Source of the DNA: Photobacterium leiognathi
GTDB lineage: Bacteria; Pseudomonadota; Gammaproteobacteria; Enterobacterales; Vibrionaceae
NCBI RefSeq assembly: GCF_030685535.1
Contig: NZ_CP131599.1
Location: forward strand, 1,396,302-1,460,301
Length of the DNA: 64,000 bases
Direction of reading: 5' to 3'
Part shown: positions 10,707 through 18,535 of the stretch, one piece after another
Layout of the letters: the number at the start of each line of letters is the position of its first letter
Numbering within the stretch: the stretch's first letter is position 1
The notes under the pieces: model-generated
Databases searched by the model: none
Told to the model about the DNA's origin: nothing
Seen by the model: the letters and a program-made list of their open reading frames with translations, nothing else
Made by a program: the position numbers and the translations under genes

Positions 10707-11276
10707 TTAACAATCAGAGAGGTGTAATTCAAAGTGACTCGTTTGATGATTAAATGTTGTAGCTGGAATATATTCTAACGAGCACTGTTTTATTTCTCCT
10801 TTATCTGACCAAAATCGATCTGTTTTAGGAAAAATATAAAAGCCACCATCACCCGTTACAACCAAGTTGAAATCTGCTTTACCTTCATTACTTTTCGCAT
10901 CATAAGATAGATCAATATCGGCAAGCGCTTGAATATCTTTTAATGGTTTATCTTTGCTATCACCAGCATATAGCGGAAGAAGAATTAACGGAAAGTTATC
11001 TATATCATTAATACGAATTTCTTGACCGTTTATTTTCAAAAAACGTACTGACGTACCGCCAAGTTGCTTAGTAATTATCTTGCTATTGGGCATATCAACT
11101 TTTGCAGAAAACATTGAAAAAGCAGACGTTAATGCACCTTTAGCTCCTTTTAAAGAAGCTATCCTTGCATCTTTTTGAATATTTAGGAATTTAGGAGCTG
11201 CAACCACAGCAAGAATACCTAATATAACAATAACAACGTTCAGTTCGATTAATGTAAAACCAGAATCACGCTTCAT
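10707..11276 (-). CDS. Type IV pilin-like protein (MSHA/PulG-type prepilin), orphan
   Basis: 189-aa prepilin. The short leader MKRDSG is followed by the classical processing site and hydrophobic helix G/FTLIELNVVIVILGILAVVAAPKFLNIQ, with Glu at +5 of the mature protein; the closest recalled wording is that of MshA-family pilins. Two cysteines in the C-terminal region (CSLEY... and the terminal SDC) could form the D-region disulfide loop. No other pilus assembly genes occur in the window, so it depends on a prepilin peptidase and secretion system encoded elsewhere. The gene is convergent with the cupin gene with only 3 bp between stops. The leftward tRNA transcription unit lies upstream. Confidence 0.82.
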   Translation of the reverse strand: MKRDSGFTLIELNVVIVILGILAVVAAPKFLNIQKDARIASLKGAKGALTSAFSMFSAKVDMPNSKIITKQLGGTSVRFLKINGQEIRINDIDNFPLILLPLYAGDSKDKPLKDIQALADIDLSYDAKSNEGKADFNLVVTGDGGFYIFPKTDRFWSDKGEIKQCSLEYIPATTFNHQTSHFELHLSDC

Positions 11277-11471: not shown

Positions 11472-11548
11472 TGGCGGAGCGGACGGGACTCGAACCCGCG
11501 ACCCCCGGCGTGACAGGCAGGTATTCTAACCAACTGAACTACCGCTCC
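11472..11548 (-). tRNA. tRNA-Asp (anticodon GTC)
   Basis: 77 nt including an encoded CCA. The acceptor stem GGAGCGG / CCGCTCC, T-arm GCGGG-TTCGAGT-CCCGT and the anticodon loop CTGTCAC are all intact. The anticodon stem is CCTGC / GCCGG, which contains a U:C mismatch at pair 29:41; E. coli has CCUGC/GCAGG and I recall CCGGC/GCCGG for vibrios, so this copy looks like one or the other with a single substitution. It is co-transcribed with tRNA-Ser, 40 bp upstream. Confidence 0.93.
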
Positions 11549-11588
11549 AATTCTTTGTGAAACCCGATTTCATCGAATCTCTAGAATA

Positions 11589-11679
11589 TGGCGGAGAGAT
11601 AGGGATTTGAACCCTAGATACGCTATTAACGTATGCCGGTTTTCAAGACCGGTGCTTTCAACCACTCAGCCATCTCTCC
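11589..11679 (-). tRNA. tRNA-Ser (anticodon TGA)
   Basis: 91 nt including CCA, with the long variable arm of class II tRNAs (CATACGTTAATAGCGTATC). Acceptor stem GGAGAGA / TCTCTCC is perfect; the anticodon stem-loop is CCGGT-CTTGAAA-ACCGG, anticodon UGA, reading UCN codons. First gene of the short tRNA transcript ending at the 11437 terminator. Confidence 0.95.
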
Positions 11680-11816: not shown

Positions 11817-12473
11817 TTATCCTGCTAATTTATCAGCGTTTAATTGTGATGCTAACAATTCACGTCCTTGCGGTGTAATACGCAAACACTCCTCAAACTG
11901 CGGATAACGCTGACTTTCAATTTGGTAATATGCCGCTAGCAACTCAGGCTCTAAACCAACTCGCTCTCTTGCCTCTTTCAATGTCAGATCCATTAACTCT
12001 GAATAGTTAATTTTATCTAACGGTTGGCAATCTGAGACATAGCCTAAATGTGCCGCTTTCTTAAAAACGACTATATCTTCATCAGAAAATTTATAAGGCC
12101 CCGGGTACAGGTACTTCGCTGCAAAGGTGTACATTTTCTTTTCTGCAGTCGTCATCCTATTAGAAGACCCCATAGTAAAACCAATCACGAACGCTTCGTC
12201 TTTTGGCAACATACCTCGACCTAATAAAAGATGAATCACGTCATGATCTTCAAGACTTACCGCACCGTTAAATAAATTAATTCCCGGTATATCGAATTTT
12301 GGATTTTCAATTAACCTAACAATTAAAGGAATATCAGCACTACCAGCAGCAACTGGCGCTTGAGTTGCTAAACATTCACGTACCGTGGCATTTTCTTCTT
12401 CTAAAGGTACGTACCACTTTTTCCAATGTGTTCCTTTTACTGGCAGTAAGCTCTTTTGTTGTTGATTATCCAT
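11817..12473 (-). CDS. Uncharacterised protein with Coq4-like HDxxHx11E motif; last gene of the TelA/vWA/OmpA operon
   Basis: 218-aa soluble protein without signal peptide. Residues HDVIHLLLGRGMLPKDE match exactly the H-D-x-x-H-x(11)-E metal-binding signature of the Coq4 family (ubiquinone-complex scaffold and hydroxylase/decarboxylase). The rest is helical and only loosely Coq4-like, so the family call is tentative. It is the sixth and last gene of a tightly spaced operon, 18 bp after the TelA-like gene. That context, not ubiquinone synthesis, suggests a role with the envelope-linked partners encoded upstream (inference). No terminator is visible between its stop and the tRNA genes. Confidence 0.5.
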   Translation of the reverse strand: MDNQQQKSLLPVKGTHWKKWYVPLEEENATVRECLATQAPVAAGSADIPLIVRLIENPKFDIPGINLFNGAVSLEDHDVIHLLLGRGMLPKDEAFVIGFTMGSSNRMTTAEKKMYTFAAKYLYPGPYKFSDEDIVVFKKAAHLGYVSDCQPLDKINYSELMDLTLKEARERVGLEPELLAAYYQIESQRYPQFEECLRITPQGRELLASQLNADKLAG

Positions 12474-12491
12474 CGCTTCATCCTTTTAGCT

Positions 12492-13670
12492 TTATAATTC
12501 AATTAACTGAGACAGATTACTTTGAATTTCTTTACCTTTTTCAGCATCTTTAATGCGATTTTCCATCTGCTCGGTTAAATGATCCATTTCCAAAATAGAT
12601 TCCGCCATTTGCGGCAGTGCTTTCACACGGTATTGGCTAATATCATTTAATGCGGCATTGATATTAGAAAACGCTTGTTTAAGCTTAGTAATATCTAACT
12701 GACTTTCAGAGGCTTGTTTTTGAATCGTCACCCCTTGATCTCGAAGTTGCTCACTGGTTTGTAAAATCAAATCATTGGTTGTTTCATTGACCGCTTGCGT
12801 TGCTTTTAAGAGCTTCTTTTGATGTTGCAGAGCAATAGACATCACTGATGCTGTTTCAAGCGCAGAAACCGTAACGTTAATAGCACGATCAACACCACGA
12901 ATAAGTTCACGGTTATTTTGCATGATCACCTCTGTAGTGATCACTGCTTGCTGGTTCACAGCTAAAGTTTGCTGTAAGTCCATGACACGCTGACGCAATG
13001 GAAATAGTACTTGTTCTTGTAAAAACTTAACTTGGCTTTCAGCTAAGCTTTGCGTCTCAAGCGTTCCACTTACTTTGGTATCAAGTAGTTGACCAAAACG
13101 AACATAATCTTCTAATAAAAACGTCAGTTCACGATAACGAATTTGATCATCTTCTAGCGTGATATTGTCACGTTGTAATTGCGCTTGCCCGCCACGAAGT
13201 GATTGCACAATGTCTTTGATCACCCCTTCTGCTGTTTGGTAACGAGCAAACCATTTCGCAATAGGCGTACCGATAAAAGGAAGAAAGCTCAATAATCGAC
13301 GGATAGTTCCCATCGTAAAATCGGTACGATTAGGGTTAACCGCATTCACTTGCTGTTGCAGATCCAACAAGCTTTTCGCCGTTCCGCCGCCATCTTGCGC
13401 ATCATCGACTAAAGTATGTAACGGAGTTTTCAATAATTGGCTGCATTGCGCTAACTGACGACAACTATCTTCGCCCAACGATGAAATTAAATTAGCCATA
13501 TCACGTTGTTCAGTAAGATCCCGCTCACCAATCGCCAATAGCGCAGTTAAGGTATCTTCAACTTTACGGGTTATTTTGTCACTTGATTCTGAACTAGAAA
13601 CAGGGATATCTAATGTCTTTTTTACAGTATCAGGTGTCGCTAATATTAATGTCGTGTCTTGTTGTGCCAT
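12492..13670 (-). CDS. TelA/YaaN-family toxic-anion-resistance-like protein
   Basis: 392-aa cytoplasmic, strongly helical protein of the TelA (KlaA/YceH/YaaN) family: a short variable head, then a central region with LLSFLPFIGTPIAKWFARYQ and a long alpha-helical body ending with QMENRIKDAEKGKEIQ. TelA proteins have been tied to tellurite resistance and to envelope-antibiotic tolerance; they typically pair with XpaC-like proteins, and an XpaC-like gene is immediately upstream here. The start at 13670 (MAQQDTTLI) is chosen because AAGGAT precedes it at good spacing and it lies 10 bp from the upstream stop; longer readings overlap that gene. Biochemical role of the family is unresolved. Confidence 0.75.
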   Translation of the reverse strand: MAQQDTTLILATPDTVKKTLDIPVSSSESSDKITRKVEDTLTALLAIGERDLTEQRDMANLISSLGEDSCRQLAQCSQLLKTPLHTLVDDAQDGGGTAKSLLDLQQQVNAVNPNRTDFTMGTIRRLLSFLPFIGTPIAKWFARYQTAEGVIKDIVQSLRGGQAQLQRDNITLEDDQIRYRELTFLLEDYVRFGQLLDTKVSGTLETQSLAESQVKFLQEQVLFPLRQRVMDLQQTLAVNQQAVITTEVIMQNNRELIRGVDRAINVTVSALETASVMSIALQHQKKLLKATQAVNETTNDLILQTSEQLRDQGVTIQKQASESQLDITKLKQAFSNINAALNDISQYRVKALPQMAESILEMDHLTEQMENRIKDAEKGKEIQSNLSQLIEL

Positions 13671-13680
13671 TTTTCTATCC

Positions 13681-14481
13681 TTAACGAGTACTGTATTTTT
13701 GTGCACGTTGAGCAAGTAGACGTAACTCTTCCATCGCAGTTTCAAGCTCCATGCCCTGCTGCGAAGAAATTAATGATAGTTGCGTCGTTACACGATCAAG
13801 CTCAGTCATCGCTTGCTCGTTTTCCGTCAATACGGTGGAAATATGTTGCTGAGATTGTTGGTAGATCTCGACACGCTTTTGCAGCGCATCCATTTGTTGT
13901 TCAATAAGAGGAGATGATTCTACCGACGTTACTCGCTCGGCTTTTAAGCTCTGTATTTGTTGATTAATGTGCGCATAATCAATACCAGATAACGCTTTAG
14001 CGCTGACTACTACGGCTCGAAGATTATCGAGAGCACCAACAAAGACCGCTTCAGCCATCGTTAAATAACGTGAATACGCCAACTCATCTTTATTTAATTT
14101 GCTATCAAGCACATGCTGAAAGGCGGCAAACTTTCGGCTTAACTGCTCAAGCTGTTTTAACGCATCGGCTTGCTTGATCTCATTTAATGCCTGTTGTAGA
14201 TCAGCCAGTGCTTGTTCACGCTTTAGCAATAAAGAACGGTGATAATGTTCAACAATCTCTAACGCATGATGCTGATACTTAACTTGATATCCCCAACATA
14301 TTTTCGCAAAACATACGGTGCCAGCAGTAAGGCTGATGCCCCAACTTAAAACACTGCCATCAAACAACACGCTATACACAGTTCCGACAACAGCAATCAC
14401 ACCGCTATACAATACGCTCGGTGCTTGAATGCTTTTAGAAATAACCTGTTTTCTTATTGCTTCAGGTGAAAGAAGATCCAA
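13681..14481 (-). CDS. XpaC-like membrane-anchored coiled-coil protein, TelA partner
   Basis: 266 aa. Residues ~20-65 contain two hydrophobic segments (SVLYSGVIAVVGTVYSVLF and LSWGISLTAGTVCFAKICW), placing the protein in the inner membrane; the remainder is a long Gln/Glu/Leu-rich coiled coil facing the cytoplasm. This two-part build and the position directly before a TelA gene match the XpaC (5-bromo-4-chloroindolyl phosphate hydrolysis) family, whose members are found beside TelA genes in many bacteria. The sequence itself is divergent, so the call leans on architecture and context. Spacing is 11 bp from the preceding SBP-OmpA gene and 10 bp to telA, indicating one transcript. Confidence 0.6.
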   Translation of the reverse strand: MDLLSPEAIRKQVISKSIQAPSVLYSGVIAVVGTVYSVLFDGSVLSWGISLTAGTVCFAKICWGYQVKYQHHALEIVEHYHRSLLLKREQALADLQQALNEIKQADALKQLEQLSRKFAAFQHVLDSKLNKDELAYSRYLTMAEAVFVGALDNLRAVVVSAKALSGIDYAHINQQIQSLKAERVTSVESSPLIEQQMDALQKRVEIYQQSQQHISTVLTENEQAMTELDRVTTQLSLISSQQGMELETAMEELRLLAQRAQKYSTR

Positions 14482-14492
14482 AATAACTCCTT

Positions 14493-16019
14493 TTAATAGG
14501 TCTCACTTAACAGTGCGATTTCCACTCGCATTAACCTATTGGCATAACGACGCTGACTTTCCCCGCTTAATCGCTCAAGCGGCTCCTTGCTACCTTTGCC
14601 TATTGCGTGGATACGGCTCGCTTCAAACCCCAACTCATTGACTAAATAATGTTTCACAGCTTTAGCTCGTTGCGCAGAAAGCTGCTCATTTAATGCTTTG
14701 TCACCACGTAAGCCAGTATGGCCTTCAACTAAAATCCTAAATTTAGGGTAATGCGTTAAGCTTTCAGCCGTTTGTTTAAGTTGTTTTTTTCCGTTTGCAG
14801 TCAGTTGATCACTACCACTTGAGAAAATGACAGGCCGTGTTTTTAAGGTGCCAATTTCAGACATGTGAGACCACTGAAGATCCGTTAATGCCTTGAACGA
14901 TAGTGATGTTGATAATTGCGGGTTTTCTTGCAGACCTAAGTTATTCAGTGTCTTTGCTACTGTTTGTATTGGTAGCGAGTTAATCAATCGATAAGGATCG
15001 TTATCAGGTAACCATTGCTCCGCTTTGCCAGAAGTATCGTTAATCACACCAATCGTGCTTTCAATCGTATCTATCAACAATTGCTGCTGACTAAACCATC
15101 CCTGTGTATTACCTTTTAGCCCAACCCATTCCACACCATTAAGTAATTGCTTCACTTGTTGCTGTGGTAAATCCGTAACATTCTCTAGCTCGTTAACCAA
15201 TTCAGATGGATGATCACGATAATATTTCAGCACTTTAAAATAGGTTGCTAAAAGCGAATCTAACTGCTCGGGTTTATTTTTAATGAAGGTTTTATTAGCA
15301 AGTAATACATCTACAATTAAGTTTTTAGTCTCTGCTGTGCTGATAACTGTCGTGAAATTACCTTTAGCAAGTGCGGTTGATACATCCGGTTCCCACAACA
15401 CCGCAACATCTAATTTTCCCTTTAGCAGTTGCTCTAACGCGTTACTTGAACCTGATGTGGGGATACGATCAATATGGCTTGCTTTAAAAACATCTAAGTC
15501 AAAATGCGAAGAAATAGCTCGAAGCAAAAACTCACTAGGCGAGTCTTGGGTATAACCTAACGATAAATCTTTCGCTTTTTTTAAGTCATTTATTGATTTA
15601 ACTGCATCACTGTTAGCAACAATGACATCACCACCTTTTGATTCATCGATTACTGCTACAATGCTGGCAGGATAACGAAAATCATGCCCTGCCGTGATAT
15701 AAGCATCAACAGTAGCAACCGCTAAATCAAGCTCACCTGTTTCTAACCCTTTCATGCGCTTTAAATAGTCAGCACCATCATCAATACATGACAGACGGTA
15801 GCCTTCACGACGCATTAAACGACGCATCTCTTTAGAACAAAGTGGATAATAGCCAACCCAGTTATCAACCCCTATCGTAATATCCCCTTTTGTTCCTCGG
15901 GCATCAGAGGTATCGGCATATAAATGTTCATCAATATGCGGTTGCATAACTTTGTAGCCAATCAATGCCAATACACCAGCCACTAAGATAAAGAGAGCAA
16001 TTTTGCTGTGCTTTTGCAT
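14493..16019 (-). CDS. Membrane-anchored solute-binding protein / OmpA-like fusion (operon gene 3)
   Basis: 508-aa fusion. An uncleaved N-terminal helix (FILVAGVLALIGYKVM) anchors it in the inner membrane. Residues ~45-300 resemble periplasmic solute-binding proteins of the NMT1/TauA/NrtA type (ITIGVDNWVGYYPLCSKE; GKLDVAVLWEPD). Residues ~385-505 are an OmpA C-terminal domain with the peptidoglycan-contacting pattern VEGHTGLRGDKALNEQLSAQ followed by RAKAVKHYL. No ABC permease or ATPase gene is nearby, so the binding domain more likely senses a ligand or acts as a scaffold while the OmpA part grips the cell wall (inference). It is paralogous in design to the first gene of the operon. Confidence 0.8.
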   Translation of the reverse strand: MQKHSKIALFILVAGVLALIGYKVMQPHIDEHLYADTSDARGTKGDITIGVDNWVGYYPLCSKEMRRLMRREGYRLSCIDDGADYLKRMKGLETGELDLAVATVDAYITAGHDFRYPASIVAVIDESKGGDVIVANSDAVKSINDLKKAKDLSLGYTQDSPSEFLLRAISSHFDLDVFKASHIDRIPTSGSSNALEQLLKGKLDVAVLWEPDVSTALAKGNFTTVISTAETKNLIVDVLLANKTFIKNKPEQLDSLLATYFKVLKYYRDHPSELVNELENVTDLPQQQVKQLLNGVEWVGLKGNTQGWFSQQQLLIDTIESTIGVINDTSGKAEQWLPDNDPYRLINSLPIQTVAKTLNNLGLQENPQLSTSLSFKALTDLQWSHMSEIGTLKTRPVIFSSGSDQLTANGKKQLKQTAESLTHYPKFRILVEGHTGLRGDKALNEQLSAQRAKAVKHYLVNELGFEASRIHAIGKGSKEPLERLSGESQRRYANRLMRVEIALLSETY

Positions 16020-16036
16020 CCTTTCCTCTTTATGAC

Positions 16037-16810
16037 TTAATTAAAGCTAGAGACATCAAATTGCGCAGATTCAGCAAGCACACTCTGCAAACCTGCTAAT
16101 AACTTCTCAGGGTTATTGGCAGATTGGTAATAAGTGATCCCTTCCGCGTTCAGTGCATGTCGATTGCCGATACAAAAGCCAATAGTATGAATGGTCACAG
16201 GCGAGTTTTGATAAATACGGCTAATGGCAACTTCCGGCTCTTCACCTACACTCGCATCACCGTCAGTCACGATGACGACATTATATTCACCATAACCTAA
16301 TTGCTTTTCCGCCTGCTTTTCTAATGCGGTGTACCCAGATGTTAATGAGCTTTTTAGCGGTGTCGTCCCGCCTGCTTTCACGTCATAAATAGCTTGTTTT
16401 AATGTCGCACGATTATTGATACCTAATGGCACTCGTAGCGATGAATCAGCATTATCAAAGACATATAAACCAACATTCGCATCTTGTGGAATATCATTAA
16501 TAAAGGTTTGCATCGCTTCTTTAGCGGCAACAATTTTTCTCTGACCATTACCACAATTGGTATTATCCATCGAACCACTACCATCAAAGATCAATAAATA
16601 GTTCGCCGCTAACCAGTTATCACTCGATGAGGTTTGAGTATTATTCAGCGTCGGCCAATTATTTTTTAATGCATCAAAACCATAACCAGTTGAGACAGCA
16701 AGCAAACTCGGTGCAGACACTAACTGTTGTGATGTCGGCTTATCTTTCATGCTCTTATTAATAAAGAACGCCGCTAATCCGACGCATATAAATAAAGTAA
16801 ATTTATTCAT
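16037..16810 (-). CDS. Periplasmic von Willebrand factor A (vWA) domain protein (operon gene 2)
   Basis: 257 aa with an N-terminal membrane anchor (FTLFICVGLAAFFI) and a vWA domain from residue ~70. All MIDAS elements are visible: DGSGSM (DxSxS), the Thr in GGTTPLKSSL, and the Asp in VTDGDAS, so a divalent metal should be bound. vWA domains mediate metal-dependent protein contacts. It sits between two SBP-OmpA fusion genes, 9 bp after the first and 17 bp before the second; the obvious hypothesis is that it bridges these two periplasmic, wall-bound proteins. Confidence 0.85.
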   Translation of the reverse strand: MNKFTLFICVGLAAFFINKSMKDKPTSQQLVSAPSLLAVSTGYGFDALKNNWPTLNNTQTSSSDNWLAANYLLIFDGSGSMDNTNCGNGQRKIVAAKEAMQTFINDIPQDANVGLYVFDNADSSLRVPLGINNRATLKQAIYDVKAGGTTPLKSSLTSGYTALEKQAEKQLGYGEYNVVIVTDGDASVGEEPEVAISRIYQNSPVTIHTIGFCIGNRHALNAEGITYYQSANNPEKLLAGLQSVLAESAQFDVSSFN

Positions 16811-16819
16811 GACCAGCCC

Positions 16820-18535
16820 CTATAATGGTTGGAATACATCAGATTCAGCTTCAAGCTGAATAATTCGAAACACAACACGCATATTTGAACGCCATTCAGC
16901 TTCAGTTGCTGGCGCACAAGGATCGCCACCGCACATGCCTGTTTTAGGATTACCAAAACCGTGTCCAACAAGAGCAAACTGACTTGAATCAAGTGCTACG
17001 CCTTGATCTGTTGCAAATATCAGGACACTTTCTTTTACGCTCTGCGCTCGTGACAGGCTGATATTGCGATTCGATTGCTTAATGCGGTTAAGCACCACAC
17101 CAGTTTCGCCTTTTTTCTTTGAGCGTAAGTATTTAAGCGGATCACTATGTCCTTCCACAGTGATCACAGCGCCACCATAAGTTGAAGCAAGCTCAATCAC
17201 TCGTAAGAACTCTGACTTATACAGTTGCGGATCAAATTTGTTTTGGTTCGGTTGGAAAGCAACTTCAAAAGAAAATAGCTCGCCATCTTCTAATGAATTC
17301 TGTTGCTGTTTTTTAGCAACGACCGAAGCAACACGTTCGCTGTTAAATCGTGATTTGTTACTGAATGCCACATCAGCCCCTAATTGAGAAAAATCCCAAT
17401 TGGCTAATAATGGCAGTTGCGTAGCTGATGTAAGCCCAAGCGTTTTTAGTGTGCTTTGTATTTCTTGGCTTACTTTAGTGATATTTCGTGGGTAGGCTTT
17501 ATCGGTAAAAAGTTGTTTATTTGCATTAATGCCTAAATGCTCAGCATCTGCGTAAAGACCTTTCACATCTTCATGAGCGTCTGGGGAATCTAATAGTAAA
17601 TCTGCTGAATATGTCAGTAACGGTGTTACCTGCGCACTAGTGTTAGCGGTATTAGTGAATAATGTTTTTACTTCCGCTATTGCTGTATTTAACGCTTTTA
17701 CAAAATTCATCACTTCAGCACGATGACTTTTAAAGTAATCAGCACGAACAGCATACACATCTGCAATAACTCTGTTCGCTGTCTTTGTTGACATCAATAT
17801 TTTGGCGCCTTTCACCGAATCCTCAGCGCCCGTTCCCACCGTGCCGCCAGATGTTAACGCTAATGCATCCGGCAAAATAACAAATACCGCATCAACATCA
17901 ACTTCGTATAAGGCACTAAATGGACTGTTGTCTGTACCTGTCAGATCTGGCAGCCATTTAATCGTGACATCTGAAGGTGTGAGTCCTGCATCTTTTAATA
18001 CCGCTCCCATATAATCGACATGCGGTCCATAAGCTTGCAAGGCGATTGTTTTCCCTTTTAGATCGGCAACCGTACGAATATTTGGCTTCACTACTAACGC
18101 ATCACCACCCGATGACCATGATAATTGATGAATTATCACAGGCTGTACAGCAGGTTTATTGGCAAGTAGATCCGACGCGGCATTAATCATGCCTAATGTG
18201 CCACGTAAGTAAGGAGTTTGACCTGATAAGTAATGAGAAAGCTGATCTGAGAATGTGTCATTACGCTTTAACGTATATTTCAAACCATAACTAGCAAAAA
18301 GAGAATCTGCTGAGGTTATCGCTTGGCTGCCATTAGCATAAATCGTATTAATATCAGCCCCCCATGTAATAACAGGTAGTGCATGGGGTTGATTTTTTAC
18401 CGAAGATACAGGGGTAGTGATCAACTGTTCTAGAGGAATGGGGTCTATATATTTAGGTTTAGCAACAACATGTGTTGATGTAGCAAACACTATTAGCGCA
18501 GCAAAATAGCTAGCATATCTCTTCATCAATCCCAT
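16820..18535 (-). CDS. Periplasmic solute-binding protein / OmpA-like fusion (first operon gene)
   Basis: 571-aa exported fusion. The signal peptide (YFAALIVFATSTHVVAK, probably cleaved after VVA) is followed by a TauA/NrtA/PhnD-type solute-binding domain (~50-350: VVKPNIRTVADLKGKTIALQ; GLTPSDVTIKWLPDLTG) and an OmpA-type C-terminal domain (~400-560) with VITVEGHSDPLKYLRSKKKG and NISLSRAQSVKESVL. Within the OmpA part two cysteines (MCGGDPC) form a small insertion that could be disulfide-bonded. It starts the six-gene leftward operon; the promoter must be in 18536-18700, divergent from the barrel gene. The start could be residue 1 or residue 4 (MKRYAS), both ATG. Confidence 0.8.
   Translation of the reverse strand: MGLMKRYASYFAALIVFATSTHVVAKPKYIDPIPLEQLITTPVSSVKNQPHALPVITWGADINTIYANGSQAITSADSLFASYGLKYTLKRNDTFSDQLSHYLSGQTPYLRGTLGMINAASDLLANKPAVQPVIIHQLSWSSGGDALVVKPNIRTVADLKGKTIALQAYGPHVDYMGAVLKDAGLTPSDVTIKWLPDLTGTDNSPFSALYEVDVDAVFVILPDALALTSGGTVGTGAEDSVKGAKILMSTKTANRVIADVYAVRADYFKSHRAEVMNFVKALNTAIAEVKTLFTNTANTSAQVTPLLTYSADLLLDSPDAHEDVKGLYADAEHLGINANKQLFTDKAYPRNITKVSQEIQSTLKTLGLTSATQLPLLANWDFSQLGADVAFSNKSRFNSERVASVVAKKQQQNSLEDGELFSFEVAFQPNQNKFDPQLYKSEFLRVIELASTYGGAVITVEGHSDPLKYLRSKKKGETGVVLNRIKQSNRNISLSRAQSVKESVLIFATDQGVALDSSQFALVGHGFGNPKTGMCGGDPCAPATEAEWRSNMRVVFRIIQLEAESDVFQPL

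Follow-up and report, generated by a model that had tools for sequence, protein, structure and literature searches.

The locus

The window analysed here is a 64,000-nucleotide stretch of the Photobacterium leiognathi contig NZ_CP131599.1 (positions 1,396,302 to 1,460,301). Positions 11817-18535 of its reverse strand hold six open reading frames (ORFs) with intergenic gaps of 9-18 bp, and an ORF check of the window found all six as a preliminary description had listed them. The first five form a conserved core built around two proteins that fuse a solute-binding protein (SBP) domain to an OmpA-like domain, a vWA protein and TelA; quite possibly, it serves as a wall-tethered ligand sensor. In order of transcription the genes are:

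16820..18535, reverse strand: sbpO1, 571 amino acids; N-terminus read from the sequence as an export signal, TauA/NMT1-like solute-binding domain at about residues 49-382, OmpA-like C-terminal part with Asp465 and Arg496
16037..16810, reverse strand: vWA gene, 257 amino acids; N-terminal hydrophobic stretch, metal-site residues D76, S78, S80, T150 and D183
14493..16019, reverse strand: sbpO2, 508 amino acids; N-terminal hydrophobic stretch, NMT1-like solute-binding domain, OmpA domain with Arg451 kept and Gly436 at the site of the usual Asp
13681..14481, reverse strand: XpaC-like gene, 266 amino acids, listed start TTG; N-terminal hydrophobic stretch followed by a helical part, no Pfam family, labelled by position and layout alone
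12492..13670, reverse strand: TelA (PF05816), 392 amino acids from the ATG at 13670
11817..12473, reverse strand: Coq4-like gene, 218 amino acids; HDxxH-x11-E motif (H77, D78, H81, E93)

The gaps measure 9 bp (sbpO1-vWA), 17 bp (vWA-sbpO2), 11 bp (sbpO2-XpaC-like), 10 bp (XpaC-like-TelA) and 18 bp (TelA-Coq4-like). The six proteins were scanned against Pfam, and matches up to E 0.01 were considered. SbpO1 matched an NMT1-type SBP family (E 4e-9), SbpO2 matched both NMT1 and OmpA (the latter at E 2e-19), the vWA protein matched VWA_2 (E 3e-12), and TelA matched PF05816 at 216 bits against a cut-off of 30 (E 8e-64). At this threshold no Pfam family was matched by the Coq4-like or the XpaC-like protein, and SbpO1 itself had no OmpA match; some of its relatives do match OmpA PF00691 in precomputed annotation. 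The proposed architecture of two SBP-OmpA proteins is upheld. Both sbpO1 and telA are single-copy in the genome.

A scan for promoters and terminators gave signals no stronger than those in shuffled sequence, and the status of the operon as a single transcript therefore rests on its spacing and conservation. A riboswitch for the ligand was considered and rejected, as none reached the gathering score in six related loci; the window stretch returned tRNAs and sub-threshold matches.

Conservation and spread of the five-gene core

Relatives of sbpO1 were sought with two peptide patterns in a collection described as holding 84,980 species genomes. The best 80 of 147 relatives were kept, and adding the window and two loci from Vibrio plasmids gave a set of 83. 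These are not all independent: five are from Photobacterium, two lie on Vibrio plasmids, and closely related loci form two pairs. Gene calling missed sbpO1 in four of the 83 (L035, L054, L061 and L062), which were left out of the counts. ORF starts were assigned mechanically, so the gaps and signal types derived for these loci are rough.

The core sbpO1-vWA-sbpO2-(XpaC-like)-TelA had the same order and strand in all 50 loci in which the five genes were called, or in 44 once six near-duplicates are set aside. Among 51 loci with at least 7 kb of downstream sequence, 44 carried all five genes; vWA was found in all 51, and sbpO2, the XpaC-like gene and telA in 50, 47 and 45, respectively. By their record titles, five-gene loci come from Gammaproteobacteria, a Casimicrobiaceae, Desulfobulbaceae and other desulfobacteria, Verrucomicrobia, Spirochaetales, Bacteriovoracaceae, and Sungbacteria and Parcubacteria (Patescibacteria metagenome-assembled genomes), although many records are metagenome-assembled genomes and some taxon assignments may therefore be wrong. 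The core is a real and widely spread system, and the expectation that it would be conserved outside this genome is borne out.

The distribution of the system is nevertheless rare and patchy. A check for co-occurrence across Vibrionaceae, which had been suggested for all six families, revealed little spread: sbpO1 was found at full length in 7 of 247 genomes and in any form in 27, the remainder being partial. At E 1e-40 it was found in 3 of 370 genomes of a class sample and 2 of 397 of a phylum sample, with its own genome counted in each.

Conserved residues

The metal ion-dependent adhesion site (MIDAS) of the vWA protein (DxSxS, Thr and Asp) is complete, with D76, S78, S80, T150 and D183 each conserved in 50 of 50 sequences, which agrees with the metal-binding role first proposed. 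In OmpA C-terminal domains an Asp and an Arg contact diaminopimelate. The corresponding residues of SbpO1, D465 and R496, are each conserved in 50 of 50; SbpO2 keeps R451 in 50 of 50, but in at least 49 of 50 another residue takes the place of the usual Asp. Only the SbpO1 OmpA domain can therefore be regarded as a canonical wall binder, and of the two wall-binding proteins initially described, SbpO1 alone is supported by its residues.

The solute-binding domains are of the TauA/NMT1 type and have the two-lobed TauA-type SBP fold. Two acids that contact an amine are kept in the TauA-like SBP domains of the cluster. HDxxH-x11-E is the Coq4 metal motif, and its residues (H77, D78, H81 and E93) are invariant in 38 aligned rows, in support of the Coq4-type motif first described.

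The ABC importer is a removable module

The Photobacterium operon encodes no permease or ATPase, and the preliminary description was correct in this respect; as a trait of the system, however, the absence of an ATP-binding cassette (ABC) transporter does not hold, and it is instead a local loss. Same-strand genes for a TauABC/NrtABC-like SBP, permease and ATPase lie within the retrieved sequence in 21 of the 35 five-core loci that extend at least 3.5 kb upstream and 9.5 kb downstream; two of the 35 carry a partial set and 12 carry none. Five of these 12 are from Photobacterium, and another (L071) carries an importer divergently. The sole importer SBP scanned, that of L018, scored 494 bits against a cut-off of 333.9 for TIGR03427, the SBP of a 'putative urea ABC transporter'.

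In a five-protein tree (FastTree, midpoint root) the importer-less loci were scattered over several branches, with Photobacterium beside importer-bearing Motilimonas. A search of the whole Photobacterium genome found no TIGR03427 SBP over the cut-off, the sole match being sbpO2 itself, and gave only weak permease matches, the best of them partial at 34.9 bits. An unlinked ABC transporter served by these SBP domains, which had been named as grounds for abandoning the earlier interpretation, is accordingly not indicated. Since importer-less loci occur in several branches and the Photobacterium genome has no orthologous importer, the core persists without one. In Photobacterium the importer is absent and the Coq4-like gene present; a possible link between Coq4-like genes and importer absence was noticed.

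Genomic surroundings and neighbours

Directly downstream of the operon, a flanking landmark is found:

11472..11679, reverse strand: tRNA-Asp and tRNA-Ser

The related genome G107 keeps the order transaldolase, outer-membrane protein, operon, tRNA-Ser, tRNA-Asp, and the tRNA pair also lies 3' of the cluster in L003, L004, L026 and L082. Eight other congeners showed no sbpO1, telA, coq4 or tRNA in the 11.9-12.7 kb adjoining transaldolase, and all eight are missing from the full-length sbpO1 matches in Vibrionaceae; the stretch of a ninth, at 1.7 kb, was too short to be informative. In G121, a congener without the operon, the outer-membrane protein gene adjoins transaldolase. Eight neighbours in the window were scanned with Pfam and resemble unremarkable genes for metabolism, regulation or the wall. 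A solitary type IV pilin-like gene (10707-11276, reverse strand) with an N-methylation motif is flanked by a cupin gene and tRNA-Asp; no match to this gene was found in the homologous stretch of G107.

Two AAA+ families recur near the core in other loci, with labels that rest on scans of one of 14 and two of seven members, respectively. A CDC48-like family occurs in 14 of 77 compared loci and is divergent and adjacent in nine of those 14; L037, L043 and L040 are among the loci with such an ATPase beside sbpO1. The second (AAA_lid_6, with ankyrin repeats in L032) occurs in seven of the 77. Neither was found among the eight window neighbours scanned. A family of 540-610 amino acids adjoins the cluster in four loci (L016:16173-18008, L024, L023 and L029), and the one in L016 matches neither Pfam nor NCBIfam.

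Giant phages and plasmids

Matches to sbpO1 were found in nine phage records. The uncultured phage LR756511 (595 kb) carries sbpO1, vWA, sbpO2 and an XpaC-like gene (E 3e-10) in one row that also includes one further, unassigned protein, an SBP, a permease and an ATPase; no TelA match was found in this cluster. LR756511 also has a terminase-profile match (E 7e-43), which is support only, because the profile is broad and was positive in 11 of 14 control genomes. Bacillus phage G encodes a permease (gp243), an ATPase (gp245) and the SBP-OmpA proteins gp249 and gp250, with no vWA or TelA match in that stretch. Prevotella phage Lak-A2 (L109) carries SBP-OmpA, permease and ATPase genes; absences in this locus mean little, because it was read with table 11 although the phage recodes TAG. 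Its terminase match holds seven in-frame TAG codons, and the recoded stop breaks up table 11 gene calls. ABC permease, ATPase and SBP-OmpA genes thus stand together in the giant phage loci L107, L108 (phage G) and L109, and LR756511 has the greater part of the bacterial cluster.

Related clusters also occur on the IMG/VR contigs L104-L106, and L104 has a true XpaC (PF10112) beside TelA. These contigs were set aside as proof of phage carriage, as none of the three had a terminase match and they may be fragments or misassigned. In L106 (4953-6706) sbpO1 is split into two ORFs, and the two pieces were read separately.

Eight plasmid records match sbpO1, seven of them over at least 80% of its length. 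On Vibrio megaplasmids the core is flanked by the separated parts of the importer. A distant two-gene version, consisting of an SbpO1-like protein and a longer vWA protein, lies on Vibrio coralliilyticus plasmid p380 (L110:9872-12917), and no other core profile matched this stretch. Both amine-contacting acids were present in nine of ten chosen SBPs from phages, viral contigs and plasmids; the distant V. coralliilyticus protein has one.

Proposed function and alternatives

From the gene content, order and conservation, together with the MIDAS, the pocket and wall-contact residues and the optional importer, we tentatively propose that the system senses a small amine-type ligand from a position tethered to the wall and is linked to TelA at the inner membrane. 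Its proteins would form a trans-envelope, ligand-responsive complex in which the two SBP domains are fixed rather than diffusing. SbpO1 would be held on peptidoglycan and SbpO2 on the inner membrane, its OmpA domain facing the wall, and the membrane-tethered vWA protein could dock the SBPs via its metal site; these three would make up the outer half, with the inner half formed by TelA and the coiled-coil membrane protein. Ligand would close the SBP clamshells, and SbpO2 and the coiled-coil protein may then relay the signal to TelA on the inner side; TelA would in turn adjust the state of the envelope. TelA relatives are linked to nisin and tellurite tolerance in Listeria by a mechanism described as unknown (PMC12791056), and have been proposed to form sub-membrane structures that block entry (PMC7824862). 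A small molecule with an amine or guanidinium group is the most likely ligand; guanidine itself is a candidate in view of urea-carboxylase gene context. Importer-bearing relatives would add a free SBP and an ABC importer to this scheme, and Photobacterium would retain the sensing core plus the Coq4-like gene.

Several observations weigh against this proposal. The acid pair had been considered as a unique signature and was rejected as such: acids occupied both sites in five of five ordinary relatives, a control whose members were chosen by similarity and include two that are near-identical. Thr132 of TauA, which also contacts the amine, is replaced by Pro (73 of 73 and 56 of 56 sequences) or Val (38 of 38), so the pocket differs from that of TauA. 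Position 436 of SbpO2 is Gly in 35, Ser in 10, Ala in three and Asn in one of 50 sequences, residues that leave wall binding by its OmpA domain in the usual way unsupported. The importer is kept in most well-covered loci. Finally, telA was not called in six of 51 loci, and TelA is therefore perhaps not the essential output.

The retention of the importer, the L018 match to TIGR03427 and the permease and ATPase genes beside SBP-OmpA genes in Bacillus phage G and the 595-kb phage would suit an accessory to nutrient import, in which SBPs tethered to the wall gather a scarce solute of the amine, urea or guanidine type close to the inner membrane and so supply the linked ABC importer. The Photobacterium operon would then be a remnant, or feed another transporter. 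We consider this rather unlikely: a third of the well-covered loci have no same-strand importer and lie on several separate branches, Photobacterium has no orthologous importer anywhere in its genome, and we know of no uptake role for TelA or vWA proteins. Moreover, tethered SBPs could not ferry solute, and fixed SBPs seem better placed for sensing or gating.

It is unlikely, too, that the system is a mobile envelope guard that excludes superinfection, with wall-held sensors detecting a breach and TelA and its coiled-coil partner sealing the inner membrane. The patchy distribution and the occurrence on Vibrio megaplasmids and in giant phages fit such a role, as does a weak partial match of TelA to JetA (E 4e-5, PADLOC). 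TelA also occurs in jumbo phages, where it is proposed to help keep out phages or xenobiotics (PMC7824862), and a Listeria TelA mutant is reported to be more nisin-sensitive (as told in PMC12791056). However, the PADLOC scan, which covered the six proteins only, otherwise matched just ZorB, in its OmpA part (E 1e-7), with some weaker partial hits; the eight neighbours scanned with Pfam look ordinary, and breach sensing would need no specific small-molecule pockets. As a further alternative, the AAA+ ATPases found beside the core in some loci could drive an assembly that remodels membranes or acts as a chaperone. The vWA-plus-OmpA operons of PMC2875224 offer a precedent, but this reading is very unlikely here, given that most loci have no AAA+ gene, none was seen among the window neighbours scanned, and the vWA protein looks exported.

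If the ligand-sensor proposal is right, a conserved operon would tie TelA to wall-held ligand binders and so provide a testable input for TelA, and fixing an ABC-importer binding protein in place as a sensor would be a new use of it. Related parts in giant phages of one Gram-positive and one Gram-negative host suggest use during infection. A broader version, doubtful at present, is a general trans-envelope signalling machine of wall- or membrane-held SBPs, a metal-dependent vWA clamp, TelA or a similar coiled-coil partner and an optional importer; giant phages of both Gram-negative and Gram-positive bacteria would have acquired this machine as a means of monitoring or controlling the host envelope during infection.

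Comparison with known systems

The closest likeness to the TelA-XpaC (yaaN-xpaC) envelope-stress pair of Gram-positives is TelA (PF05816) adjoining a membrane protein; here SBP-OmpA and vWA proteins are added, and the Photobacterium membrane protein has no detectable similarity to XpaC. PF10112 was not among its three matches at E 5, had no match in the genome, and was not among the matches listed (25 of 39 families) for nine XpaC-like members, and hhalign against a two-sequence XpaC alignment gave a probability of 1.2. Homology to XpaC, which the original label implied, is thus not supported by profile search, genome search or hhalign.

According to PMC7824862, TelA and a vWA protein occur in Ter stress systems too, but the vWA protein here matches TerY only at E 0.011 (PADLOC) and looks exported. 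The suggested kinship with Ter was rejected, because no TerD-family protein (PF02342) was found in the genome. Zorya (ZorAB) shares a membrane-anchored OmpA-domain protein, to which SbpO2 is similar in its OmpA part only; the SBP domain sets SbpO2 apart, and of the components of a Zorya system (ZorA, ZorB and effectors) SbpO2 alone gave matches, to ZorB and partially to ZorC (E 0.006), with no ZorA match among the six proteins. The FtsZl1-vWA-OmpA operons, for which membrane remodelling is predicted (PMC2875224), likewise bring vWA and OmpA proteins together; the present system has SBP domains, TelA and often ABC genes, and no FtsZ-like gene turned up, though none was sought. In TauABC, SsuABC and NrtABC importers, and with the TIGR03427 SBP, the binding protein lacks the fusion to OmpA that fixes it in place here, and in Photobacterium no permease or ATPase is encoded with the SBPs. 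The combination is not described in the open-access literature searched, in keeping with the preliminary description, although an earlier mention in the Ter or TelA literature is possible. Taken as a whole, we regard the system as new; its domain families are mostly known.

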